Of a stretch of 21,881 nucleotides of DNA, positions 1,341 to 21,881 are shown piece after piece (position 1 is the stretch's first letter; every line of letters begins with the position of its first letter). The notes beneath the pieces were generated by a model. It was not told the DNA's origin and searched no databases. It worked only from the letters and a program-made list of their open reading frames with translations. A program made the position numbers and the translations under genes. The stretch is from Clostridia bacterium (GTDB lineage Bacteria; Bacillota_A; Clostridia; Lachnospirales; Cellulosilyticaceae), in contig JARBTY010000030.1 in the NCBI GenBank assembly GCA_029239935.1, forward strand, positions 1 to 21,881. The letters run 5' to 3'.

Positions 1341-1895
1341 ATGAATAACAAAGCATTATCTGTTAAAACAATTGTTGCAGTGGGTATCGGAACGGCTGTC
1401 TTTTATATTTTAGGCCGCTTTGCTGCAGTACCTACAGGGGTTCCTAACACTGAAGTTCAAACGGCCTATGCCTTTTTAGCGTTAATGGCCATACTTTATG
1501 GACCCGTGGCAGGAGCAGCCATAGGTTTTATAGGTCATACCTTAAAGGATCTAATCGCCTATGGATCACCATGGTTTAGCTGGATTATAGCTTCGGCGGT
1601 AATGGGTTTAATCATTGGATTAGGCTGGAAAAAACTCCGTGTCAATGAGGGGGAATTTGGAAAAAAGGGAATCATTGTTTTTAATATTTATCAGGTCATT
1701 GCCAATATTGTTGCATGGGGAATTGTAGCACCAACACTGGATATACTCATTTATGCAGAACCAGCTAACAAAGTTTATTTACAAGGTTTAGTTGCGGGCA
1801 TATCCAATGTTATTACAGTAGGTGTGCTGGGTACAATACTCCTCGTTGCCTATAGTAAGACCCGAACTAAAAAAGGAAGTTTAGATATTGAATAA
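1341..1895 (+). CDS. ECF importer substrate-binding (S) component, UPF0397 family
   Basis: Integral membrane S component of an energy-coupling factor importer; it binds the substrate and works with the ATPase and T component encoded next. The 184 residues are strongly hydrophobic with about five or six membrane segments. They carry UPF0397 hallmark motifs: PTGVPNT (31-37), AYAFLAL (42-48), GHTLKD (65-70), YGSPW (74-78) and EPANKV (140-145). Length is normal for the family. A GGGGAGGG ribosome binding site lies just upstream. Many databases label UPF0397 as a riboflavin transporter component, but the SAM riboswitch in its leader points to methionine or a sulfur precursor. This agrees with the MtsT-type methionine prediction from comparative genomics, as I recall it. 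The family call is firm; the substrate is inferred. Confidence 0.88.
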
Positions 1896-1900
1896 TATCA

Positions 1901-1932
1901 AAAAAACCGAAGCATTTAGTCTTCGGTTTTTT
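1901..1932 (+). terminator. Rho-independent terminator inside the ECF operon
   Basis: A 12-bp perfect stem, AAAAAACCGAAG (1901-1912) with CTTCGGTTTTTT (1921-1932), has an eight-base loop and ends in six T. It lies between the S component and the ATPase gene, so it probably reduces rather than ends expression of the downstream genes. A smaller 7-bp hairpin, ATCTCTT/AAGAGAT, follows at 1956-1972. No separate strong promoter is visible in the 72 bases before the ATPase gene. Confidence 0.88.
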
Positions 1933-2004
1933 ACATACGATACGCTAAAAAATGAATCTCTTTATAAGAGATATTAAAAATGTAATCAATGAGGGAAAAT
2001 AAGC

Positions 2005-3711
2005 ATGAAAAAACCTATTATAGTATTTGAAAACTTTAGTTTTCGATATAGAGCACAAAAGCAGCCCACATTAAAAAATATAAACCTAACCATTTATGAA
2101 GGGGAAAAGGTCCTTATCGTTGGGCCATCAGGTTCGGGAAAAAGCACGCTTTCTAACTGTATTAACGGCCTTGTACCTTTTTATTATGAGGGAGAAATAT
2201 CAGGAAGTTTAAAAATTAGAGGAAAAGAAACCAAGCAAATGAGTATTTTCGAACTGTCTCATTACGTAGGGACCGTTTTACAAGACTCAGACAGTCAGTT
2301 CATTGGGTTGACTGTGGGAGAAGATATTGCATTTAAACTAGAAAACGAATGTATAGGTCAAAAGATGATGAGAGAAAAGGTTGAAGCAGTTTCTAAGCTG
2401 GTAGAGATACACAGTCACTTAGAAGAAGAGCCCCATGACTTATCAGGGGGACAAAAACAGCGGGTAACCTTGGCAGGCGTCATGGTTGGAGGAGGAGATA
2501 TCCTTTTATTTGATGAACCCCTTGCGAGTTTAGATCCTGCCACTGGGAAAACAGCTATAGAACTTATTGATAGGCTCCAAAGTGAAGGACATAAAACTAT
2601 TATTATTGTAGAACATCGCTTAGAAGATGTACTGCATTGTGGTGTGGACAGAGTAATCGTTGTGAGTGAAGGAGAAATTATAAAGGATGAGAGGCCAGCA
2701 GAGTTATTCGCTACAAATATTTTACCACAAATAGGCATAAGAGAGCCCCTTTATATTACTGCCTTAAAATATGCCGGTTGCAAGATTATACCTGAAAGAA
2801 GTATAGAACGTGTAGAAACATTAAAAATAAATGACTATAAAACCCAGATGATAAAATGGCTGAAAGAAATACCAGAAGAGAAACAACAGAAGAAAAGCAG
2901 TACACTCTTGAAATTTGAAGAGGTAAGGTTTGCCTATGCTGAACAAAAAGAGACACTTCATGGTATAAGTTTTGAGGTGAATAGGGGAGAGATGATCAGC
3001 ATTGTTGGAAAAAATGGAGCAGGTAAGTCCACACTGGCTAGACTAATATGTGGATTTTACAAACCAACTAAGGGGCGAATTGTATTTGAGGGAAGAGATA
3101 TGGTGGGTGATACCATCAAAGAAAGAGCCACCAAAATAGGCATGGTGATGCAAAATCCTAATCAAATGATTTCTAAAACAATGATTTTTGATGAGGTGGC
3201 TTTAGGCCTTAGGATAAGGGGCGTTAAGGAGTCAGAAGTGATAGAACGAGTTGCCGAGGTGCTAAGGATATGTGGTTTGTATCCATTTCGCAAATGGCCC
3301 ATTTCGGCTTTAAGCTTTGGGCAAAAGAAACGGGTGACCATTGCATCTATCTTGGTGTTAGCGCCAGAGCTTCTAATTGTGGATGAACCTACTGCAGGTC
3401 AGGATTTTAAGCACTATACAGAAATTATGGAATTCCTTAAGACACTTAATCAAGCAGGGTTGACCATTATCATGATTACCCATGACATGCATTTGATGTT
3501 AGAGTATACGGACAGGGCCATTGCACTGGCAGATGGCTGTAAGATAGCGGATGATAAGGCCTATCGTGTGTTGACAGAAAAAGTTGTGATAGAACAGGCC
3601 AACCTCAAAGAAACATCCTTATACGAACTGGCTATTAAAGCAGAATTAGAGCATCCCAGGGCTTTTGTAAAAGGGTTTGTTGAATATGACAGGAGGACAA
3701 GAAGCGGATGA
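2005..3711 (+). CDS. ECF importer double ATPase (two fused ABC domains)
   Basis: Cytoplasmic energy-coupling ATPase of the ECF importer, with both ABC domains in one 568-residue chain (YkoD-like layout). Domain 1: Walker A GPSGSGKST (40-48), Q-loop near VLQD (91-94), signature LSGGQ (146-150), Walker B LLFDEP (167-172), switch histidine H204. Domain 2: Walker A GKNGAGKST (335-343), MQNPNQ (382-387), variant signature LSFGQ (436-440), Walker B LLIVDEP (456-462), and ITHD after it. A linker of about 45 residues joins them. All catalytic elements look intact, so both halves should bind ATP. A GAGGG site precedes the ATG. The stop overlaps the next start (ATGA), so translation is coupled to the T component. 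Confidence 0.93.
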   Translation: MKKPIIVFENFSFRYRAQKQPTLKNINLTIYEGEKVLIVGPSGSGKSTLSNCINGLVPFYYEGEISGSLKIRGKETKQMSIFELSHYVGTVLQDSDSQFIGLTVGEDIAFKLENECIGQKMMREKVEAVSKLVEIHSHLEEEPHDLSGGQKQRVTLAGVMVGGGDILLFDEPLASLDPATGKTAIELIDRLQSEGHKTIIIVEHRLEDVLHCGVDRVIVVSEGEIIKDERPAELFATNILPQIGIREPLYITALKYAGCKIIPERSIERVETLKINDYKTQMIKWLKEIPEEKQQKKSSTLLKFEEVRFAYAEQKETLHGISFEVNRGEMISIVGKNGAGKSTLARLICGFYKPTKGRIVFEGRDMVGDTIKERATKIGMVMQNPNQMISKTMIFDEVALGLRIRGVKESEVIERVAEVLRICGLYPFRKWPISALSFGQKKRVTIASILVLAPELLIVDEPTAGQDFKHYTEIMEFLKTLNQAGLTIIMITHDMHLMLEYTDRAIALADGCKIADDKAYRVLTEKVVIEQANLKETSLYELAIKAELEHPRAFVKGFVEYDRRTRSG

Positions 3712-4538
3712 AACAAATTCTATTAGGTTATTTAGAAAGGGAGTCTCCAGTCCATCAGTTAACAGGAGCTACAAAACTCATCTGTCTCATACTTTGTTCA
3801 TTTACAACAATGCTGACATATGATACGCGGGTACTGATGGGAATACTTATATTTAGTGTGATTATTTTTAAAATATCTAAGATTAAATTTGGGGAGATAG
3901 CCCTGGTATTTTATTTTATACTGGTATTTTTAGCTCTCAATAACCTAGCCATTTTTATCTTCTCGCCCTATGAAGGGGTCAAGATATACAACAGCCGAAC
4001 AGAGCTCTTTAAAATAGCAGGTCACTACAGTATGACCGCTGAGCAGCTTTTTTATCATTTAAATATAACTCTAAAATATTTAGCACTTGTGCCTATGACA
4101 CTTTTATTTATGGTAGCTACCCAACCCAGTGAGTTTGCAGCCTCCCTGAACCGTATTGGAGTGAGTTATCGCATAGCTTATGCAGTGGCTATTGCCCTAA
4201 GGTATATACCAGATGTACAGAGGGACTATCAAAATATTGCTTTTGCTGCACAAGCCAGGGGAATAGACATGTCCAAAAAAGAAAAAGTGATAAAACGTCT
4301 TAGAAATATAACCTCTATTTTAATACCACTTATATTCTCAAGCCTACAGCGAATAGATACCATAAGCTGTGCAATGGAGCTTAGAGCATTTGGAAGTCAT
4401 AAGAAGCGTACATGGTATCGGAAAAAAAACTTTGCAACCGGTGACTATATTGCTCTTGCAGTTGTGACTGTCCTTTTCATACTATCGCTATTTATCACAG
4501 CTAGTAATGAGGGAAGGTTTTATAATCCTTTTCATTAG
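3708..4538 (+). CDS. ecfT: ECF importer transmembrane coupling (T) component
   Basis: Membrane scaffold that links the S component to the ATPase. The 276 residues carry several hydrophobic segments (about 22-58, 64-87, 120-137, 199-212 and a last one near 248-264). The T-component coupling motifs are visible: AAQARG at 180-185, and a second, weaker one, AMELRAFG, at 222-229. These short helices dock into the grooves of the ATPase domains. The ATG overlaps the upstream stop by four bases, confirming operon membership. Length is normal. It is the last gene of the riboswitch-controlled unit and is followed directly by the strong terminator at 4539. Confidence 0.9.
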   Translation: MKQILLGYLERESPVHQLTGATKLICLILCSFTTMLTYDTRVLMGILIFSVIIFKISKIKFGEIALVFYFILVFLALNNLAIFIFSPYEGVKIYNSRTELFKIAGHYSMTAEQLFYHLNITLKYLALVPMTLLFMVATQPSEFAASLNRIGVSYRIAYAVAIALRYIPDVQRDYQNIAFAAQARGIDMSKKEKVIKRLRNITSILIPLIFSSLQRIDTISCAMELRAFGSHKKRTWYRKKNFATGDYIALAVVTVLFILSLFITASNEGRFYNPFH

Positions 4539-12343: not shown

Positions 12344-13864
12344 ATGCGTATTACAGTTAATAAAAACAGTGCTGTTCCTATTTATTTGCAAATCAGGAAT
12401 CAAATCAGGGATATGGTTTTAGATGGGATTTTAGAATCCGGATTTAAGCTGCCTTCTGAACGGAAATTGGCAGAAATCTTAGGGGTGAACAGAAGTACAG
12501 TCTTAAATGCCTATAGGGATCTTAAGGCAGATAATTTGATAGGTTCCCATATTGGTCAGGGAACTATTGTGTTGATGCCAAAGGTTGCTAAAGAACGAGA
12601 GCAACTAAGTCAAAAGGTTAATCCGCTGCCTTGGATACAGCTTTTAGGGGGATGTGCCCAAAGGATGCAGCAGCCACTGGTCAGTGATATACTCAAAACA
12701 GCTAACAGAAAAGATGTTATATCTTTTGCAGCAGGTTTTTTGGCTCAGTCCAAAGATCCAGTAGATGAACTGCTTGAGACCCAGAGTAGGCTCCTTAAAG
12801 ATTATGGCAGTACGATGCTGCAATATGGTGCAACCCAAGGTTATTTGCCGTTAAGGGAGAGCTTGTCCCATTTTATGAGAAAGCGGGGAATTCAGGCAAA
12901 CCCAGAGGAAATTATTGTGCTTTCAGGTTCACAGCAGGCCATTGATCTCACAGCCAGAATACTTATAGACCCAGGAGATGTGGTTATTGTAGAGGAACCT
13001 ACATTTTTTTCGGCCTTGCAAATATTTCAAAGTTTGGGAGCAAGGGTTATAGGGGTACCAATAGACGAACAAGGAATGAAAATAGATTTTTTAGAGCCGT
13101 TGCTCCAGAGGGTAAAACCCAAACTCATCTATACTATTCCCACCTTTCAGAACCCTTCAGGAACTGTTATGAATCTCAAAAGGAGAAGGCAGCTCTTAGA
13201 TATGGCCTATAAATATCAGATTCCTATTTTAGAGGATGATCCTTATGGAGAACTGAGATATGAAGGTGAACATCTCCCTTCTTTAAAGGCTTTAGATCAG
13301 CATGGCTATGTGATTTATGCAAGCACCTTTTCTAAAATAATGTTCGGAGGTATGAGAATTGGATGGGCCATAGCAAGCCATGAAATGATTAAACAGCTTA
13401 TTTTGGCTAAACAAATGGCAGACCTTCATACTAACACTCTTGGCCAGTGGATTATGGATGATTTTTTGAGGAGAGATGTTTTGGAGAAACGGCTTGAAGC
13501 CGTCATCCTGGAAAATAAGGAAAATAGGGACTTGATGGCGGAGGCTTTAAAGAAGTATGCAATAAAAGATTTGAAGTGGCAGATTCCAGAGGGGGGACTG
13601 TATTTTTGGTGTCAGCTGCCAGAGCAAATAGAGCCAGAACGGTTGATTGTAAAGGCTCAGGAAAAAAAGGTCATCTGTGTGCCAGGGCATATTTTTTATC
13701 CAGGCTATGCAAAAAGTCATTTTATACGCCTGAGTTTCTCTTCTCCTCCAAGAGAACTTATTACAAAAGGTATCAAACTGCTGGCAGAAGCTGTTCAAGA
13801 GATGAGCGAAGAAGAAAAGTCAAAAGTGTATTTGAATGAATGTGAAATCAAACCTATATTATAG
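12344..13864 (+). CDS. MocR-type (GntR family) transcriptional regulator with aminotransferase-like domain
   Basis: DNA-binding regulator of 506 residues that fuses a GntR winged helix (about 11-80: VPIYLQIRNQIRDMV, LPSERKLAEILGVNRSTVLNAYRDL, GQGT) to a fold-type-I aminotransferase domain. The PLP site is complete: N270 in FQNP, D298 in LEDDPY, K331 in STFSK as the Schiff-base lysine, and a C-terminal arginine in FIRLSF. PLP binding is therefore expected. In this family the PLP domain senses an amine or amino acid rather than catalysing turnover. It has GGAGG about nine bases before the ATG. The next gene is a PLP aminotransferase, paralogous to this protein's C-terminal domain, starting 28 bases after the stop; it is the likely target and shares the ligand class. 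Confidence 0.93.
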   Translation: MRITVNKNSAVPIYLQIRNQIRDMVLDGILESGFKLPSERKLAEILGVNRSTVLNAYRDLKADNLIGSHIGQGTIVLMPKVAKEREQLSQKVNPLPWIQLLGGCAQRMQQPLVSDILKTANRKDVISFAAGFLAQSKDPVDELLETQSRLLKDYGSTMLQYGATQGYLPLRESLSHFMRKRGIQANPEEIIVLSGSQQAIDLTARILIDPGDVVIVEEPTFFSALQIFQSLGARVIGVPIDEQGMKIDFLEPLLQRVKPKLIYTIPTFQNPSGTVMNLKRRRQLLDMAYKYQIPILEDDPYGELRYEGEHLPSLKALDQHGYVIYASTFSKIMFGGMRIGWAIASHEMIKQLILAKQMADLHTNTLGQWIMDDFLRRDVLEKRLEAVILENKENRDLMAEALKKYAIKDLKWQIPEGGLYFWCQLPEQIEPERLIVKAQEKKVICVPGHIFYPGYAKSHFIRLSFSSPPRELITKGIKLLAEAVQEMSEEEKSKVYLNECEIKPIL

Positions 13865-13891
13865 AAATCATTGTGTAAGGAGAGGTGCCAA

Positions 13892-15079
13892 ATGCCTATG
13901 ACATTTGCAAAAAGAATGCAGGATATGAAAGCGTCAGAGATCAGAGAAATATTAAAAGTAACCGAAGACCCAGAGATTATTTCTTTTGCTGGAGGGATTC
14001 CGGCTCCAGAACTTTTCCCAGTCAAAGAGATTGTTAAAGTCACAGAAATAGTACTAGAAGAGGCTGGGGAACAGGCGCTTCAGTATGGTACAACAGAAGG
14101 GTATACACCTTTAAGAGAAAAAATAGCCAAACGTATGAATGAACGATTTAAGACAGATTTCTCCTTAGAAAATATTTTAATTACCAATGGTTCTCAGCAA
14201 GGGCTGGACTTCTCGGGAAAGATATTTATTGATGAGGGAGATGTTATTTTATGTGAAAGTCCTACCTATCTGGCAGCAATCAATGCTTTTAAGGCATATC
14301 AGCCCCAGTTTATAGAGATTCAGACGGATGAAGAAGGCATGGTTATAACGCATCTTCAAAGAGTACTTGAGAGCACAGAAAAGATAAAGTTTATTTATAT
14401 CGTACCGGATTTTCAAAATCCTTCCGGTGCATCGTGGTCCCCACAAAGACGAGAACAATTCATGGCGGTTGTAAAAAACTATGAGGTGATGGTCATTGAA
14501 GACAATCCCTATAGCGAAATCAGATTTGAAGGAGAGAGGCCCTTTTCAGTGAAAGCGCTGGATGAAAAAGGGCAGGTAGTTTGTCTTGGGACTTTTTCCA
14601 AAACTTTTTGTCCAGGTCTGCGGATTGGGTGGGTAGCGGCTGAAAAATCTATTTTAGAAAAATATATACTGGTAAAACAAAGCGCAGACCTGCACAGCTC
14701 TACGTTAAACCAAAGAACAATCTCAAAGTATATAGACCTCTATGATTTTGATGCCAATATCGATAAAATTAAAGCAGTTTATAAAAAAAGAAGAGATGTG
14801 ATGGTCAAGACGATGGAACAAACATTTCCTCAGCAGATCAGGTTTACCCGTCCTAGCGGAGGTTTGTTTTTATGGGTTGAACTTCCGGAATCAGTTGATG
14901 CAAAAGAGGTGCTGGTTAAAAGTCTTGAGTATAAAGTAGCCTTTGTACCAGGAGAAGCCTTTTTTCCTAACCAAGGCAGGAAAAATACCTTTAGACTGAA
15001 CTACTCTAATATGTCAGAGGAAAGAATTATGGAAGGCATCAAAAGGCTGGCAGTAGTCTTGGAATCATACTGCAGTTAA
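13892..15079 (+). CDS. PLP-dependent aminotransferase (class I/II, 2-aminoadipate/MocR-like branch)
   Basis: Cytoplasmic aminotransferase of 395 residues, normal for the family. PLP residues: Y65 in LQYGTTEG, N176 in FQNPSG, D204 and Y207 in IEDNPY, K237 in GTFSKTF, R244 in GLRIGW, and the substrate-carboxylate arginine R368 in FRLNYS. The closest recognisable group is the LysN/2-aminoadipate and KAT-like branch, which accepts several amino acids; I cannot fix the substrate. It is strikingly similar to the C-terminal half of the upstream MocR protein, for instance both have KQ.ADLH..TL.Q. I chose the ATG at 13892, nine bases after AAGGAG; an in-frame TTG at 13871 precedes that ribosome binding site. 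It is co-transcribed with the regulator and is followed by a terminator. Confidence 0.9.
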   Translation: MPMTFAKRMQDMKASEIREILKVTEDPEIISFAGGIPAPELFPVKEIVKVTEIVLEEAGEQALQYGTTEGYTPLREKIAKRMNERFKTDFSLENILITNGSQQGLDFSGKIFIDEGDVILCESPTYLAAINAFKAYQPQFIEIQTDEEGMVITHLQRVLESTEKIKFIYIVPDFQNPSGASWSPQRREQFMAVVKNYEVMVIEDNPYSEIRFEGERPFSVKALDEKGQVVCLGTFSKTFCPGLRIGWVAAEKSILEKYILVKQSADLHSSTLNQRTISKYIDLYDFDANIDKIKAVYKKRRDVMVKTMEQTFPQQIRFTRPSGGLFLWVELPESVDAKEVLVKSLEYKVAFVPGEAFFPNQGRKNTFRLNYSNMSEERIMEGIKRLAVVLESYCS

Positions 15080-15103
15080 AATAAAAGAGGTGAATAGCCA
15101 GGG

Positions 15104-15140
15104 AGCTGAGTTTACGTATTGAAGTAGACTTAGCTTTTTT
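15104..15140 (+). terminator. Rho-independent terminator after the aminotransferase gene
   Basis: A 12-bp stem pairs AGCTGAGTTTAC (15104-15115) with GTAGACTTAGCT (15124-15135), two of the pairs being G-U, and is followed by six T. It isolates the MocR/aminotransferase unit from the Pho-type promoter that starts 12 bases later. Confidence 0.88.
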
Positions 15141-15151
15141 ATTTACGATAT

Positions 15152-15201
15152 TTAAGACAATGTTAACCCAACATTTACCATAAATTAACCTGTAGTTAAT
15201 A
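15152..15201 (+). promoter_or_regulatory. PhoP-box array (phosphate-starvation control)
   Basis: Five TTAACA-like hexamers lie in exact 11-base phase: TTAAGA (15152), TTAACC (15163), TTTACC (15174), TTAACC (15185) and TTAATA (15196), each separated by five bases. This is the direct-repeat architecture bound by PhoP dimers in Bacillus and relatives (TT-hexamers, about 11-bp period). A further TTTACG at 15142 is one base out of phase. The array ends nine bases before the -10. No sigma-A -35 is present at the right position, as expected of an activator-dependent Pho promoter. Confidence 0.85.
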
Positions 15202-15207
15202 CGCCCT

Positions 15208-15233
15208 CTGTAGAATACAGCTGTAAATGACAG
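15208..15233 (+). promoter_or_regulatory. -10 element embedded in a tandem CTGTA...ACAG motif
   Basis: The -10 TAGAAT (15211-15216) lies inside a perfect inverted repeat CTGTA-GAA-TACAG (15208-15220). Immediately after it comes a second 13-base copy of the pattern CTGTAnnnnACAG (15221-15233). It may be a repressor site covering the transcription start, or a chance pairing. Confidence 0.45.
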
Positions 15234-15273
15234 AAAATAAAGTCAAAGTTAATCGTACAGGGGGATATAGGCA

Positions 15274-16368
15274 ATGAACTTTAAAAAGATTTTTTTAGTA
15301 GGTCTTATAGCGGCTTTAACTGTTACAGGGTGTGCATCAAGTGATACAAAAAAGGAGATTGATCTTAATGCTGTATCTTTAGAAGATATGGTTAAAAAAG
15401 CTAAGGAAGAAGGCGAGGTTAATTCGGTAGGCATGCCAGATTCATGGGCCAACTGGATACAGACATGGGAAGAAATAACGGCGGAATACGGTATTAAGCA
15501 TACGGATGTAGATATGAGTTCAGCAGAAGAATTGGCTGTATTTGAAGCTGAAAAAGATAGTGCAACAAAAGATATTGGAGATGTAGGACAGTCTTTTGGT
15601 CCTTTAGCAGAAGAAAAAGGACTAACCCTCCCTTATAAAACCACAAACTGGGACAAAATACCAGATTGGGCCAAAGATGACGATGGGGATTGGATCATAG
15701 GGTATTATGGCACGATGGCGATTATAACAAATAAGCAGTTGGTACAAGAAGCACCCAAATCATTTGCGGATTTATTAGAAGGTGATTATAAAATCGCAGT
15801 GGGAGATGTGACTAAAGCCACTCAAGCGCAAAGTGCTGTTCTGGCAGCAGCCATTGCTATGGGCGGAGATGAAACCAATATTAAGCCGGGGATTGATTTT
15901 TATAAAAAGCTGGCAGAGGCAGGCAGACTGGACAAAGGAGAACTCTCTCTGACACGACTTGAAAAAGGAGAAATAGAAGTGGCTCTTTTATGGGATTTTA
16001 ATGCCCTTGGTTATAAAGCTCAGTTTGAAGCCAACAACAGCAATGCACAGTATGAAGTACATATTCCAGTAGATGGTTCTGTTCAATCAGGTTATGCAAC
16101 GGTGATTAATGCGTATGCACCTCATCCTCATGCAGCTGCCTTAACAAGAGAATATATCTTAAGTGATAAAGGGCAGATTAATTTAGCCAGAGGGTTTGCA
16201 AAACCTATACGTAGCGATGTTGTCCTTCCAGAAGATGTAAAAAGCAAAATGATACCCGATGAAGAATACGTAAAAGCTGTTCCTATTAAAGATTTCAAGG
16301 CTTGGGAAAATACAGTTAAAGAACTTGGGGCACTTTGGCAGGAAGAAGTTATGGCCGGTGCAAAATAG
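15274..16368 (+). CDS. ABC importer substrate-binding lipoprotein (Pho-regulated)
   Basis: Extracytoplasmic solute-binding lipoprotein of 364 residues. The signal peptide ends in lipobox V-T-G-C with the lipidated cysteine at residue 20. The mature part resembles the periplasmic-binding families of polyamine, ferric-iron and 2-aminoethylphosphonate importers: a GYYGTMAIITNK strand near 145-156, 'SFADLLEGDYKIAVGDVTKATQ' near 164-185, and 'ALLWDFNALGYKAQ' near 237-250. It delivers substrate to the two permeases encoded downstream. An AGGGGGAT site lies about seven bases before the ATG. It is first in an operon controlled by a PhoP box, so an organophosphorus ligand, or a phosphate ester or diester, is the best guess. 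The binding-protein call is strong; the ligand is inferred. Confidence 0.88.
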   Translation: MNFKKIFLVGLIAALTVTGCASSDTKKEIDLNAVSLEDMVKKAKEEGEVNSVGMPDSWANWIQTWEEITAEYGIKHTDVDMSSAEELAVFEAEKDSATKDIGDVGQSFGPLAEEKGLTLPYKTTNWDKIPDWAKDDDGDWIIGYYGTMAIITNKQLVQEAPKSFADLLEGDYKIAVGDVTKATQAQSAVLAAAIAMGGDETNIKPGIDFYKKLAEAGRLDKGELSLTRLEKGEIEVALLWDFNALGYKAQFEANNSNAQYEVHIPVDGSVQSGYATVINAYAPHPHAAALTREYILSDKGQINLARGFAKPIRSDVVLPEDVKSKMIPDEEYVKAVPIKDFKAWENTVKELGALWQEEVMAGAK

Positions 16369-16374
16369 TATAGA

Positions 16375-16405
16375 ACGACTCACCTGTTAAAGGTGGGTTG
16401 TTTTA
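16375..16405 (+). terminator. Intra-operon terminator after the binding-protein gene
   Basis: An 11-bp stem pairs ACGACTCACCT (16375-16385) with AGGTGGGTTGT (16391-16401), with two G-U pairs and a five-base loop, followed by TTTAT. It would let only part of the transcripts continue into the hydrolase, permease and ATPase genes. No other convincing promoter is seen in the 60 bases up to the next start. Confidence 0.78.
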
Positions 16406-16464
16406 TACATTGTACTTTAAATCAGCTTTTGGCGTGAAGAAGAACTAGGAAGAGGGCGGAAAAA

Positions 16465-17292
16465 ATGACTAAAACAATCATGGTTTTATTAGATGGATGT
16501 ACTTATCAAGAGGCTAGTGAGAGCATGGGGTATCTAGAACATTTGTGTGAAGTAAAATGGGGCGCTAAATATAAAATAAAAAGTGAGCTGCCAGCTATGT
16601 CAAGGCCGCTCTACGAAACCCTTATGACAGGACTTGCAGTTTCAAAACATGGGATTTTTAATAATTTGATATGCAGGGAATCTGCTTATGAAAATATTTT
16701 TTCTATGTGTAGGGAAGCGGGATTGGTGACAGGGGCCGCAGCTTATTTTTGGATAAGTGAACTGTACAATAAAGCCCCTTTTGACTATGTGGAGGATAGA
16801 ATAGCGCTAGAAAGAAATGAAGGCATTACTCATGGGATTTATTATTATGAAGATAGTTATCCAGATTCCCATGTTTTTAGCGACGGAGAGTTTATACGCC
16901 GCACCTATCATCCAGATTTTTTACTTATCCATTCGATGAATATTGATTATGAGGGGCATTTAAATGGAAGTAGCAGTAAGGCTTACACCAAGGCAGTGAT
17001 CAAAGCAGATGTGCTGCTCTCAAGTTTTGTAAGCTTGTGGATGAGTGAAGGATATGACATTGTTATAACAGCTGATCACGGCATGACTAAGGAGGGTTTT
17101 CATTGCGGCAACACAGAGCCAGGCAGGACAGTTCCGCTCTACATTTTGAGTCAGAGGATAAAAGGCGGGGTATTTACTGATAAGGAAATCTCTCAATTGG
17201 CTATAGCACCTCTATTGTGTTATCTGTTAGGCATTAAGCCTGCCGCAGAGGGTATGGATTTGACGGAGGCGGGGGTGGCATTTAAATGTTAA
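16465..17292 (+). CDS. Alkaline-phosphatase-superfamily phosphodiesterase/phosphonate hydrolase, cytoplasmic
   Basis: A 275-residue metal hydrolase of the alkaline phosphatase superfamily, resembling the nucleotide pyrophosphatase/phosphodiesterase and phosphonoacetate hydrolase branch. The two-metal site can be read off: D10 (LLDG), nucleophile S46 in AMSRP, D161 and H165 (NIDYEGH), D204 and H205 (TADHGM), and H213 (FHCGN). All expected ligands are there, so it should be catalytic. The nucleophile is serine, whereas threonine is usual in this branch. There is no signal peptide, so it acts inside the cell on something already imported. It sits between the binding-protein and permease genes and overlaps the first permease gene by seven bases. 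It is short for the superfamily (usually 300-450 residues), with no large cap domain. Substrate unknown. Confidence 0.82.
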   Translation: MTKTIMVLLDGCTYQEASESMGYLEHLCEVKWGAKYKIKSELPAMSRPLYETLMTGLAVSKHGIFNNLICRESAYENIFSMCREAGLVTGAAAYFWISELYNKAPFDYVEDRIALERNEGITHGIYYYEDSYPDSHVFSDGEFIRRTYHPDFLLIHSMNIDYEGHLNGSSSKAYTKAVIKADVLLSSFVSLWMSEGYDIVITADHGMTKEGFHCGNTEPGRTVPLYILSQRIKGGVFTDKEISQLAIAPLLCYLLGIKPAAEGMDLTEAGVAFKC

Positions 17293-18131
17293 AAGATAAG
17301 AAAAGATTCCTAGTGCTTTTGCCGGTACTGCCTTTTGTAATGATTGTACTTATCTATCTCATCATACCCATTATCCATTTGATTATAAAAAGCTTTTTGA
17401 AAGAAGATGGAATAGGTTTTACTTTTAAGCATTATCTGACTATTTTTTCAAAAGATTATTATCTTCAAGCTATCTCCAACAGCTTATGGATTTCTGTTAT
17501 ATCTGCGGTAATCGGTATCCTTATTGCACTCTTTGCCGCCAATGCCGCCAATCACCTGACAGCAAACTCTAAAAACAGGTTTTTGGCTATGCTGAATATG
17601 ACCTCCAACTTTTCGGGGGTTCCATTGGCTTTTGCGTATATTATTCTTTTAGGTCATACAGGGATACTTGTGATATTAGGCAAACGATTGGGTATAGAAA
17701 GCTTAGGCAATTTTAATATTTATACCACTATAGGACTTATTATCACCTATATTTATTTTCAAATCCCCCTAGCCACGTTGCTTCTTATACCTACCTTTGA
17801 AGGCTTAAGAAAAGAATGGCGGGAAGCAGCTATGCTGCTTAAGGCCAATGGCTTTCAGTACTGGATGTATGTAGGGATTCCTATCGTATTGCCTTCAGTT
17901 TTTAGTACACTCAGTGTGCTTTTTGCCAATGCACTGGCGGCTTATGCTACAGCCTATGCACTGCTTGCAAGTAATTTTTCACTGCTGCCTATTAGGATAT
18001 CAGAAATGTTTGTAGGCGATGTCTATCAAAGGCCAGAACTGGGCTCAGCACTTTCAGTAGTGATGATGATTTTAATGGTGGGTGCAGTGCAGCTAAACAC
18101 TTATTTACTCAAAAAAGTAAAAGGACGGTAA
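17286..18131 (+). CDS. ABC importer permease, first subunit
   Basis: Inner-membrane permease of 281 residues with about six membrane segments (roughly 8-33, 64-88, 108-131, 147-169, 204-226, 246-272). The EAA cytoplasmic loop that contacts the ATPase is at about 180-200 (EAAMLLKANGF...GIPIVLP). It belongs to the binding-protein-dependent family of polyamine, ferric-iron and aminoethylphosphonate importers. The ATG overlaps the end of the hydrolase gene (ATGTTAA), so translation is coupled. A G-rich stretch inside the hydrolase gene serves as ribosome binding site. It pairs with the second permease, which starts four bases after this stop. Confidence 0.9.
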   Translation: MLKDKKRFLVLLPVLPFVMIVLIYLIIPIIHLIIKSFLKEDGIGFTFKHYLTIFSKDYYLQAISNSLWISVISAVIGILIALFAANAANHLTANSKNRFLAMLNMTSNFSGVPLAFAYIILLGHTGILVILGKRLGIESLGNFNIYTTIGLIITYIYFQIPLATLLLIPTFEGLRKEWREAAMLLKANGFQYWMYVGIPIVLPSVFSTLSVLFANALAAYATAYALLASNFSLLPIRISEMFVGDVYQRPELGSALSVVMMILMVGAVQLNTYLLKKVKGR

Positions 18132-18135
18132 AGAC

Positions 18136-18918
18136 ATGAAGAAGTTCAATTTTGCCCAAATCATTACAGGGATTGTCTATCTTTACTTGCTGATCCCACT
18201 TGTTTTAACCTTTTCCTATTCATTGGCTTCAGAGTGGATAGATATTTTGCCTACGGGGCTCACGTTCAAGTATTATATGAGAATTTTGCCAAGACAAGAC
18301 TTTTATAGTGCGATCAGCAGAACGCTTATACTGTGTGTAGTGGCTGTTGTATTATCTGGGGCAGTCATGTTATTTACCATGTATGTAGTGATTGTGCATT
18401 ATCCTAAACTGGATAGGTATGTTCAAATAGTCTGCATGGTTCCTTACGCCTTGCAAGGGATTATTATTGCAATCAGTATCTTGACACTTTACTCTGGTTC
18501 AAAAGGGATACTGGGTAATAGGATGATGATGTTAATTGGAACCTATTGTATCATTATTTTACCGTATATGTATCAAGGCATTAGAAATTCCTTAAGGACA
18601 GTCAATGCCAAACAGCTTATAGAAGCAGCACAGATTTTAGGAACGACTAAGCTGTATGCATTTTTGAGAGTGGTGGTACCCAATATTTTGTCAGGGGTTA
18701 TTATTTCTTCAATGTTGTCTATGGGGATCATTTTTGGAGATTTTGTAGTAGTTAACATTATTGCAGGGAGCTCTTATCAGACCGTCTCTATGTTTTTGTA
18801 TAAGATGATTGCACAATCAGGACAAACAGCCAGCGTGATTATTGTTGTGATGTTTATTGTGACGTTAGTTTTGTCACTGATTACTTTTAAGTTGAGAAAT
18901 AAAAATCATTCATCCTAA
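18136..18918 (+). CDS. ABC importer permease, second subunit
   Basis: Inner-membrane permease of 260 residues with about six hydrophobic segments. It has an EAA loop at about 163-183 (EAAQILGTTKLYAFLRVVVP) and a conserved C-terminal 'GSSYQTVSMFLYKMIAQSG' stretch typical of the second permease of this importer class. It would form a heterodimeric channel with the preceding gene product. Its ribosome binding site (AAAGGA) lies at the end of the preceding gene. The gene is followed by the ATPase gene after a 12-base gap, with AAAAGGAG in between. Confidence 0.9.
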   Translation: MKKFNFAQIITGIVYLYLLIPLVLTFSYSLASEWIDILPTGLTFKYYMRILPRQDFYSAISRTLILCVVAVVLSGAVMLFTMYVVIVHYPKLDRYVQIVCMVPYALQGIIIAISILTLYSGSKGILGNRMMMLIGTYCIIILPYMYQGIRNSLRTVNAKQLIEAAQILGTTKLYAFLRVVVPNILSGVIISSMLSMGIIFGDFVVVNIIAGSSYQTVSMFLYKMIAQSGQTASVIIVVMFIVTLVLSLITFKLRNKNHSS

Positions 18919-18930
18919 AAAGGAGAAGTT

Positions 18931-19947
18931 ATGGCTTATATTAGATTTGATAACATTCATAAATCATTTGAAGACAATCATGTTTTGAAAAATGTTGAGT
19001 TAACTATAGAAAAGGGCAAATTTGTAACACTGCTCGGTCCATCAGGCTGTGGCAAGAGTACACTACTCAGGTGCTTGGCAGGACTTGAAACAGTGGATAG
19101 CGGAACTATTTTATTAAATGATGAGGACATTACATACAAATCTGCACAAAATCGTGAGATTGGCATGGTCTTTCAGCATTACAGTCTTTTTCCTAACATG
19201 ACAGCAGAGCAGAATATAGCTTTTGGATTAAAGATAAAAAAAATGCCCCAGGAGCTTATTAAACAAAAAACAAAAGCAATCGTGGAATTAGTCCATTTGA
19301 CAGGCAAAGAAAAGCATTACCCGGCGCAGCTTTCCGGTGGGCAGCAGCAGAGGGTGGCTTTAGCCAGAGCTATTGTAACAGAACCAAAAGTTTTATTGTT
19401 GGATGAGCCCCTTAGTGCCATTGACGCACAGCTTAGAAGGCTGCTCCAGATAGAGATTAGAAAAATACAAAAAGAGTTTAACATTACCACGCTATTTGTG
19501 ACCCATGATCAGGATGAAGCGATGATTATGTCTGATGAAATTCATTTGTTTAATGAGGGGCAGATTGAACAATCAGGGACACCGGTACAACTGTATACAC
19601 AGCCCAAAACAAAATTTGCTGCCAGCTTTATGGGGCATTACAATGTGATAGATACAGAAAAGTTTGACCAGACAAGAGGACTTTCCTTTAAAAGTGAAAC
19701 AATAGCTATAAGGCCGGAGGTTATACATGTTTCAGAAGAACAGCCACCTCAAAATGAGGGCTATATACAGAGAGAAGGGACAATTGAAGATTTAGTTCCT
19801 AGAAGCAATATCTTGCGTTATCATATCAGTATCAATGAAGCCATTACACTCAAAGCAGATGTACTCTTTAGAACTCATGCCTTATTTGACATCGGACAAA
19901 AGGTATGGTTAAGTATAGAGAAAAGAAACTGTATCGAATTAACATAA
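18931..19947 (+). CDS. ABC importer ATPase subunit
   Basis: Cytoplasmic ATPase of 338 residues that powers the importer. Walker A GPSGCGKST (36-44), Q-loop FQHYSLFPN (81-89), signature LSGGQQQR (134-141), Walker B LLLDEP (155-160) and the switch histidine in VTHDQDE are all intact. After about residue 235 it has a TOBE-like regulatory region (IAIRPEVIHV, then a beta-rich tail), as in PotA and FbpC-type subunits. Length is normal. It is the last gene of the Pho-controlled operon and is followed three bases later by a terminator. The sequence places it in the polyamine/iron/aminoethylphosphonate subgroup but does not settle the substrate. Confidence 0.92.
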   Translation: MAYIRFDNIHKSFEDNHVLKNVELTIEKGKFVTLLGPSGCGKSTLLRCLAGLETVDSGTILLNDEDITYKSAQNREIGMVFQHYSLFPNMTAEQNIAFGLKIKKMPQELIKQKTKAIVELVHLTGKEKHYPAQLSGGQQQRVALARAIVTEPKVLLLDEPLSAIDAQLRRLLQIEIRKIQKEFNITTLFVTHDQDEAMIMSDEIHLFNEGQIEQSGTPVQLYTQPKTKFAASFMGHYNVIDTEKFDQTRGLSFKSETIAIRPEVIHVSEEQPPQNEGYIQREGTIEDLVPRSNILRYHISINEAITLKADVLFRTHALFDIGQKVWLSIEKRNCIELT

Positions 19948-19949
19948 TG

Positions 19950-19980
19950 AAATGGAGTCCTTTATGGCTCCATTTGTTTT
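19950..19980 (+). terminator. Rho-independent terminator of the Pho-regulated operon
   Basis: A 10-bp stem pairs AAATGGAGTC (19950-19959) with GGCTCCATTT (19966-19975), with one G-U pair and a six-base loop, followed by GTTTT. It closes the transporter/hydrolase operon and separates it from the chemotaxis gene. Confidence 0.85.
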
Positions 19981-20002
19981 ATATGAAAATATTTAAAACT
20001 AT

Positions 20003-20033
20003 TTGAAAAAATGCAGCAATAGGTGTACGATAT
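20003..20033 (+). promoter_or_regulatory. Putative promoter of the chemotaxis receptor, possibly sigma-D type
   Basis: Two readings are possible. As sigma-A: TTGAAA (20003-20008), 17 bases, TACGAT (20026-20031). As sigma-D/sigma-28: an A-rich -35 (AAAA, 20007-20010), 15 bases, then TACGATAT (20026-20033), which matches six of eight bases of GCCGATAT. The second is attractive for a motility gene, but the -35 is imperfect. Confidence 0.4.
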
Positions 20034-20079
20034 AAAGACTATAAAATTTACAAATCATAAAAGATAAGGAGAAAAGAGG

Positions 20080-21881
20080 ATGAAAGGGATTAAACAACTT
20101 TCGGTTTTAGTGCTCATGATTTTAGTCATAACATTTTTTGCAGTCCAAGCAGCAGTGAGTTTATATCTGTTTAATCAAAACAACTATAAGGAAATACAAA
20201 ACTCATTGAGTTTGAGAGCAGAAAAAGAAGCTTTATATGTCAATTCAGAACTTATTAAAATGGAAGAGGCATCGATAGGTTTTGCAGCGGCGACAGCTTC
20301 GGTACCTGATTACAATCAAGATATATTGTTTGAAATGCTTGAGAAATATATCAATAAAGAAGAGCTGATCGTAGGGGCAGGTTTTTGGCTGGAGCCTTTT
20401 GAATATGATAAGAGCCAAAAATATTTTGGACCTTATATGTACAAAGAGGGACAAGACGTAGTATTGACATGGGATTACTCCAATGAAAAAGAGGATTATT
20501 TTCAGTATGCTTGGTATACTGATGGAGTGGAGACAGATAAAAACGCTGTTTGGAGTGAACCTTATGCCGATGCAGTGACAGGGGTGCCTATGATTACAAC
20601 AACAGCACCTATTCACAAGGGTGGAAAGGTCAGAGGTGTAGTAACTTTTGATGTGGGTCTTGAACAACTGCAACGTTACATATCTGAGATAAAAGTTGGC
20701 GAACAAGGGTATGCGCTGCTTGTGACACAGGAAGGTTACTATTTAGGTCACAGAGATGAAGATAAAAACTTGAAAATCAAGATGAATGAGGATGAAAATA
20801 CCCAATTAGCTGAAATCGGGAAACGTCTCATAGAGGGAGAAAAAAGTATATCTGCCCTTTCAATAATAGAGGGAGAAAAGCACTTCGTCATTTCGAAACC
20901 TGTAGGTGACTCAGGACTTACACTGATTATCATGCTGCCTACAAAAGAGGCTTATGCATCTGCAAACAGTGTGATGGTTATACTTATTATCATATTAGTG
21001 ATCAGTTTAGTTGTTTTTTCAGTTTTGTTAGAAAGATTGGTTGCAAGATATATTGTGACTCCTGTAAATCATATCAAACAAAGTATCAGCATCATGGCAA
21101 AGGGAGATTTTTCATCACCAATAGATACAAATAAAATGAATCATATTAGGGAGTTCAGTGAAATACAGGGGCACCTCGGCCAGATGCGGGATGCTGTAAG
21201 CAGTATTGTCAAAAATAGTACAGATGCAGCCCATCAAGTAGCAGCATCATCAGAACAATTAAAAACAATCAGCAGAGAGTCGGTAACAGCTGCGGATGAA
21301 ATAGCCAGAACAATAGAAGAAATCTCAGCAGGAGCAAATAGCCAGGCTACGGAGACGAGTCAGGGTACAAAACATATGGGCAGTCTAGGGCAGTTAATTG
21401 CAGAAAATGATAAATCTATGGAAAAACTTAATGATGCTGCTGATGAAGCCGGCCGGTTAAAAGATGAAGGGGTAAAAGACTTAGATGATTTAGAGGATAA
21501 AGCAAAAGAGAATGCCAAAGCAGCTGAAGAGGTAAGAGATATTATTGCTGCAACCAATCAAAGTGCAGACAAGATTGAAAAGGCCAGTCAAATGATTAAA
21601 AATATTGCTAAGCAAACAGATCTTTTGGCGCTTAATGCAGCTATTGAAGCAGCCAGAGCTGGGGAGTCCGGTAGGGGATTTGGAGTGGTAGCAGAAGAAA
21701 TAAAAAAACTTGCAGAGCAATCTAATGACTTTACCGATGAAATCGCCTCAGTTGTGAAAGAACTCTCGACTCAAACCATAAGAGCAGTACAAACCATAGA
21801 GCAGGTGGTAGTTATTGCCAAGGCCCAGACTGAAAGAGTTAATCATACCCATATTAAATTTCAAGGCATTAGTACAGCCAT
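20080..21881 (+). CDS. Methyl-accepting chemotaxis protein, 3' end outside the window
   Basis: Transmembrane chemoreceptor; 600 codons are open to the window edge without a stop. TM1 is at about 8-30. An extracellular sensor follows (about 35-290), of dCACHE type by its strand pattern ([15 protein letters not shown]...[17 protein letters not shown]..., [19 protein letters not shown]). TM2 is at about 297-318, then a HAMP linker ([19 protein letters not shown]). The cytoplasmic signalling domain includes the conserved hairpin tip '[16 protein letters not shown]' and [11 protein letters not shown] (about 514-541), which binds CheA and CheW. AAGGAG lies eight bases before the ATG. The return half of the coiled coil is missing only because the window ends. 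The ligand is unknown; the WY...PY.D pattern hints at a small molecule such as an amino acid. Confidence 0.93.

Follow-up and report, generated by a model that had tools for sequence, protein, structure and literature searches.

We analysed a 21,881-nucleotide stretch of DNA from a member of the Cellulosilyticaceae (Clostridia bacterium, GenBank assembly GCA_029239935.1, contig JARBTY010000030.1, positions 1 to 21,881), hereafter the window, in which an operon at 15274–19947 encodes a solute-binding protein, an enzyme of the type I phosphodiesterase/nucleotide pyrophosphatase family, two permeases and an ATPase. The 194-bp intergenic region ahead of this operon holds five hexamers, TTAAGA, TTAACC, TTTACC, TTAACC and TTAATA, starting at 15152, 15163, 15174, 15185 and 15196, so that every step is 11 bp. 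The array ends at 15201 and is followed by CGCCCTCTG (9 nt) and then by TAGAAT at 15211–15216. The initial annotation of the window had placed five hexamers at these starts, in 11-bp phase without drift, and had read them as a PhoP box ending nine bases before a −10 that has no −35; the letters bear out the arrangement, and a sigma-70 scan of 15040–20120 found no two-hexamer promoter at TAGAAT. Judged from sequence, 15163–15216 is very probably a PhoP-dependent promoter, which would place the operon under Pho control (Table 1).

Table 1. Features of the promoter region and operon (ABC, ATP-binding cassette; NPP, nucleotide pyrophosphatase/phosphodiesterase).
Feature	Coordinates	Strand	Remarks
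Repeat 1, TTAAGA	15152..15157	+	lowest-scoring of the five (4.3 bits); not in the conserved core of four repeats
Core PhoP-box array, TTAACC/TTTACC/TTAACC/TTAATA	15163..15201	+	11-bp phase; conserved at orthologous loci
−10 hexamer, TAGAAT	15211..15216	+	separated from the array by nine bases; lacks a −35
Solute-binding protein, 364 aa	15274..16368	+	PF13343; 402.8 bits to PDB 5t1p; PhnS-like below NCBIfam cut-offs
18-pair hairpin at the junction of the binding-protein and phosphodiesterase genes	16368..16408	+	hairpin scan
Compact NPP-type phosphodiesterase, alkaline phosphatase superfamily, 275 aa	16465..17292	+	PF01663
ABC permease A	17286..18131	+	PF00528
ABC permease B	18136..18918	+	PF00528
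ABC ATPase with TOBE domain	18931..19947	+	PhnT2 is the best-scoring NCBIfam model (368.6 bits; cut-off 457.7)
Terminator-like hairpin at the operon end	19950..19975	+	hairpin scan

The repeat array resembles PhoP boxes at pstS

An alternative form in which the PhoP box is written is TT(A/T)A(C/T)A. In a passage of PMC6327384 the box takes the form TT(T/A/C)ACA. The window array departs from either form by a C instead of the final A in three of its five hexamers and by the G at position 5 of TTAAGA. PMC4415409 describes 11-nt direct repeat units and members of the Pho regulon. Scored against TTAACA, the five repeats reach 24 of 30. This value never arose in 3000 first-order Markov simulations of the intergenic region, and 60 Markov versions of the full window, searched on both strands, peaked at 22. 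A perfect fourfold TTWAY in 11-bp phase matches the window once, at 15163; when up to two mismatches are allowed there are five overlapping matches, all within the array, compared with a shuffle mean of 0.14.

We searched the upstream regions of 30 pstS-like loci (26 of which exceed the family cut-off), drawn from 22 genomes with relatives of the importer, for runs of four hexamers resembling TTAACA at 11-bp steps, and accepted a box if the shuffle fraction was at most 0.02. Seven loci gave accepted boxes, and their 28 hexamers, all from other genomes, furnished the hexamer matrix. Under this matrix the window array scores 22.3 bits for its best four repeats and 26.6 bits for all five, while the next separate match on the same strand of the window reaches 9.8 bits. 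The best arrays at the seven source loci, which as training data set an internal range, score 16.2–30.2 bits; the window site thus falls among the pstS sites of other genomes. Bacillus-type PhoP boxes (pstS, phyL/phyC) likewise consist of TTWACA-like direct repeats with an 11-bp period upstream of a −10; the window array differs from them in its C-ending hexamers and its weaker fifth upstream repeat, and in preceding an organophosphate-type importer rather than Pst or a phytase.

The array and its distance to the −10 are conserved upstream of orthologous importers

An alignment of 18 binding proteins, scanned against one genome per species, returned at least 582 relatives, of which the best 80 were kept (loci L001–L080). 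Arrays were scored in the 250 bp that precede the binding-protein match. At a threshold of 10 bits, 54 of the 80 loci possess an array, and at 12 bits 49 do. Control tiles elsewhere in the same loci passed these thresholds in 25 and 6 of 3619 cases, and control 250-bp regions upstream of other open reading frames (gap of at least 100 bp) in 2 and 0 of 336. When the period was set to anything other than 11 bp, the count dropped from 49/80 to at most 3/80. The initial annotation had taken loss of the repeats in orthologous upstream regions as evidence against its reading; they are retained at 49 of 80 loci at 12 bits or more, against 0/336 controls.

The annotation had also regarded five repeats as the mark of a strong site. 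Five repeats in perfect phase are indeed present; the fifth, TTAAGA, is the weakest, and a hexamer of at least 4 bits at this upstream position occurs in just 4 of 50 sites (window included), where it is always TTAAGA. The fifth repeat adds little and lies outside the conserved architecture.

The −10 hexamer is not part of the matrix, and its placement was read from 42 distinct sites of at least 12 bits, with identical ones counted once and the window included. In 35 of these 42 a TAnnnT follows the array after a gap of exactly nine bases, the next-best offset accounting for 6; with similar sequences grouped, the nine-base spacing holds in 20 of 26 groups (window included; next-best offset, 4). 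The repeat motif is common to the window and the seven pstS boxes of other genomes, six of which also have the nine-base gap. This gap between array and −10 is the most conserved feature. The sites compared come from Bacilli, from Clostridia and, at L009 and L065, from Synergistota, class and phylum being taken from the record titles. Transcription would start near 15223, about seven bases after the −10, which would set the core repeats at approximately −60 to −22.

Taken together, the PhoP-box reading holds because of the 22.3-bit score under the pstS matrix, the conservation at orthologues, the 11-bp period and the nine-base spacing to the −10. A number of observations weigh against it. Scores fall below 10 bits at 26 of the 80 orthologous loci, and the orthologue sites are phylogenetically non-independent. 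No clear box was obtained at 23 of the 30 pstS-like loci, which were excluded from the matrix, and across the six close relatives of the window a box was seen at only 1 of 11 pstS loci, with a different −10 distance. The box does not track the enzyme type encoded alongside the importer either: it is present at 43 of the 59 loci with the phosphodiesterase, at 8 of the 14 that encode a CehA/McbA-like PHP enzyme instead and at 3 of the 7 that have neither, and a tight linkage between box and phosphodiesterase is accordingly rejected. Finally, no match names a substrate for the importer subfamily.

The two controls that reach 10 bits both precede a gene whose product groups with a PHP phosphatase in the clustering, and so do five of the six top-scoring regions among the 336. 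In Sedimentibacter and in four Trichococcus loci, this gene is the second one downstream of the importer. Arrays before this gene look like co-regulation with the importer rather than noise. At L017, L021, L023, L025 and L026 the gene lies on the minus strand with a weak PhoP-like array of its own (8.7–11.7 bits).

An importer of phosphonate/polyamine type with a compact phosphodiesterase

By sequence family, the importer is of the phosphonate/polyamine ABC type. The NCBIfam models nearest to the binding protein and the ATPase are those of 2-aminoethylphosphonate importers, and those nearest to the permeases are 2-aminoethylphosphonate importer and polyamine permeases, all below cut-off. The Phn cut-offs are missed by the binding protein (62.8 against 310 and 52.7 against 395.3 bits), by the ATPase (Table 1) and by permease A (61.5 against 593.25). 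The match to PDB 5t1p has no substrate name attached. With the closest models below cut-off and 5t1p unnamed, an attempt to name the cargo from sequence failed.

The 275-aa enzyme scores above the gathering score for PF01663 and has the alkaline phosphatase superfamily fold. Eight residues (D10, S46, N67, D161, H165, D204, H205 and H213) are invariant in 24 enzyme sequences; from their spacing and the NPP numbering, we take them to be the NPP metal ligands and nucleophile. The enzyme profile matches the NPP 2gsn at 40.8 bits and the phosphonoacetate hydrolase 1ei6 at 38.7 bits, nearly level. The best structural matches of the enzyme are NPPs, and phosphonoacetate hydrolase is absent among the best 50 listed, which does not exclude that identity. 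Compared with the NPP-type enzymes Xac NPP and ENPP6 and with phosphonoacetate hydrolase, which are about 380–430 aa long, the window enzyme is shorter, nearly lacks the stretch from the DH to the GxHG motif (NPP numbering) and has an N-terminus that reads as cytosolic.

Across the 80 importer loci, enzymes were sought by tblastn with one query each, on contigs some of which end early. The phosphodiesterase is present at 59, a CehA/McbA-like PHP enzyme without the phosphodiesterase at 14, both at none and neither at 7. Zero overlap would have a probability of 8e-11 under random placement, the loci being however related, and the two enzymes are distributed as if they replace each other. Clustering of the neighbours, with one representative of each cluster checked by profile, gave 38 members for a DeoR regulator, 22 for a HisJ-like PHP phosphatase and 13 for a Cof-type HAD phosphatase. 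A diesterase and then a monoesterase, as in these relatives, fits the import of a phosphodiester; in the window operon no second phosphatase was found among the eight proteins tested (12344 onward).

Regulator and cargo

Could the array have arisen by coincidence in an AT-rich region? The region is 66% AT, and such an origin is nonetheless scarcely credible: none of the 3000 Markov sequences reproduced the array, the strict phase and −10 distance are kept in distant species, and the Markov and shuffle controls, the orthologue conservation and the period test together reject chance. Binding by a different regulator is a further alternative; 11-bp direct repeats are general for the OmpR family. 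An OmpR-family protein other than PhoP would suit the three C-ending hexamers and the scarcity of boxes at the pstS loci of close relatives (1/11). We nevertheless deem it unlikely, in that the matrix was derived solely from pstS upstream regions, the −10 distance equals that at 6 of 7 pstS sites, and a PhoB-like regulator, albeit below the model cut-off, is encoded within 3 kb of pstS in four of the six box-bearing genomes searched. As to the phoPR pair that the initial annotation expected in the genome, both close relatives searched for the regulator (G072 and G229) encode a PhoB-like candidate, again below cut-off, within 3 kb of a pstS gene.

With the PhoP promoter kept, a separate alternative concerns the cargo, which could be a phosphonate (2-aminoethylphosphonate, phosphonoacetate or similar) processed by a phosphonoacetate-hydrolase-like or phosphonate-ester hydrolase. 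This reading is possible, if rather doubtful. In its favour, the binding protein and ATPase are most like PhnS and PhnT2 in NCBIfam, and the enzyme profile places 1ei6 level with NPP. PMC8316502 assigns AepX and AepS to PF13343 too and describes low-phosphate induction, via PhoBR, of an AepX-type binding protein in Pseudomonas putida BIRD-1; the abstract of the same paper terms the three Aep transporters phosphate-insensitive. The AepXVW and PhnSTUV importers of 2-aminoethylphosphonate resemble the window system in a PF13343-type binding protein, two permeases and a PhnT2-like ATPase. Unlike them, the window proteins miss all the NCBIfam Phn cut-offs listed, a phosphodiesterase gene stands inside the operon, and no PhnW, PhnX or PhnA model is among the matches listed for the eight window proteins. 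The accessory genes in relatives encode phosphatases, and NPPs are the best structural matches of the enzyme, both of which argue against a phosphonate. On these sequence comparisons the cargo is most likely an organophosphate, with a phosphodiester more likely than a phosphonate, a view we hold with less confidence than that of a PhoP promoter.

A model for the operon

In the model that emerges, phosphorylated PhoP would bind head-to-tail on the four 11-bp repeats, which would stand in for the −35, and would contact RNA polymerase at the −10 fixed nine bases downstream, so that phosphate starvation would switch on the five-gene operon. The binding protein would then capture an organophosphate outside the cell, the two permeases and the ATPase would carry it in intact, and the compact NPP-type enzyme would cut it in the cytosol to phosphate or a phosphomonoester. 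The repeats, their phase, the −10 distance, the conservation and the gene families are computed directly; we infer that the regulator is PhoP and that it activates, and likewise the class of substrate, cleavage in the cytosol and import ahead of cutting.

More broadly, and as a tentative proposal that stops somewhat short of being probable, the loci may represent an undescribed, widespread Pho-regulon system of Firmicutes and some Synergistota, in which phosphodiesters would be imported intact and hydrolysed inside the cell, the first cut being made by a compact NPP-type phosphodiesterase or by an unrelated CehA/McbA-like PHP enzyme. Among the matches listed, we recognised no paper by title or abstract that describes Pho control of this operon in Firmicutes, subscription journals being largely outside the search. 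Campylobacter jejuni Cj0727–Cj0733 may be a Pho-regulated relative, which the literature passages did not confirm. Ugp and UgpQ constitute a Pho-controlled glycerophosphodiester importer plus diesterase, and the proposed window system would work alike, presumably with a different binding-protein family and an unrelated diesterase. Ugp and UgpQ are named in PMC4415409. Pho control of organophosphate importers is already known, and the operon would be a new target of a known type of switch.

The analysis would place an importer operon of which little has been described in the response to phosphate starvation, and it suggests that the cargo is an organophosphate and not phosphate itself. Its promoter architecture recurs across Bacilli, Clostridia and the two Synergistota loci and provides a simple rule for finding such promoters: four 11-bp repeats, nine bases, then a −10.

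Distribution and neighbouring features

A close orthologue of the importer occurs in 2 of 196 genomes sampled around the genome of L001, one of the two being that genome; 20 more gave weak matches only. Release factor 3 of the window shares 91% identity with its counterpart in Cellulosilyticum sp. I15G10I2, and the six close relatives were the best release-factor matches (82–91% identity) among 392 genomes of one order. The importer is absent from all six, the same query having given matches in the 196-genome sample. The distribution of the operon looks patchy. With close copies in 2/196 genomes and the importer in 0/6 close relatives, the data do not support steady vertical inheritance within the lineage of the window.

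In the orthologous loci, the 10-bp motif GTAAYAAACA occurs exactly, within 150 bp upstream of the binding-protein match, in 11 of 38 loci encoding the DeoR regulator and in 0 of 43 others, the window included. At L052, L053, L055, L056, L057, L074, L076 and L080 it lies near the predicted transcription start, and it probably serves as the operator for the DeoR regulator of the operon itself.

Within the window operon, the 18-pair hairpin possibly keeps the binding-protein message in excess. Terminator scans are weak on their own, with 3 terminator-like sites found against 3.5 expected. Downstream of the operon, the region ahead of a chemoreceptor gene holds no box (best, −4.4 bits), which leaves Pho control of that gene unsupported. 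Directly upstream of the importer, 12344–15079 encodes a MocR-like regulator (over the PdxR cut-off) followed by an aminotransferase; no box is present in the 186 bp ahead of the MocR gene. At the other end of the window, an S-adenosylmethionine (SAM) riboswitch at 1129–1230 (80.5 bits) precedes genes at 1341–4538 that, by sequence, read like an energy-coupling-factor importer, perhaps for methionine.
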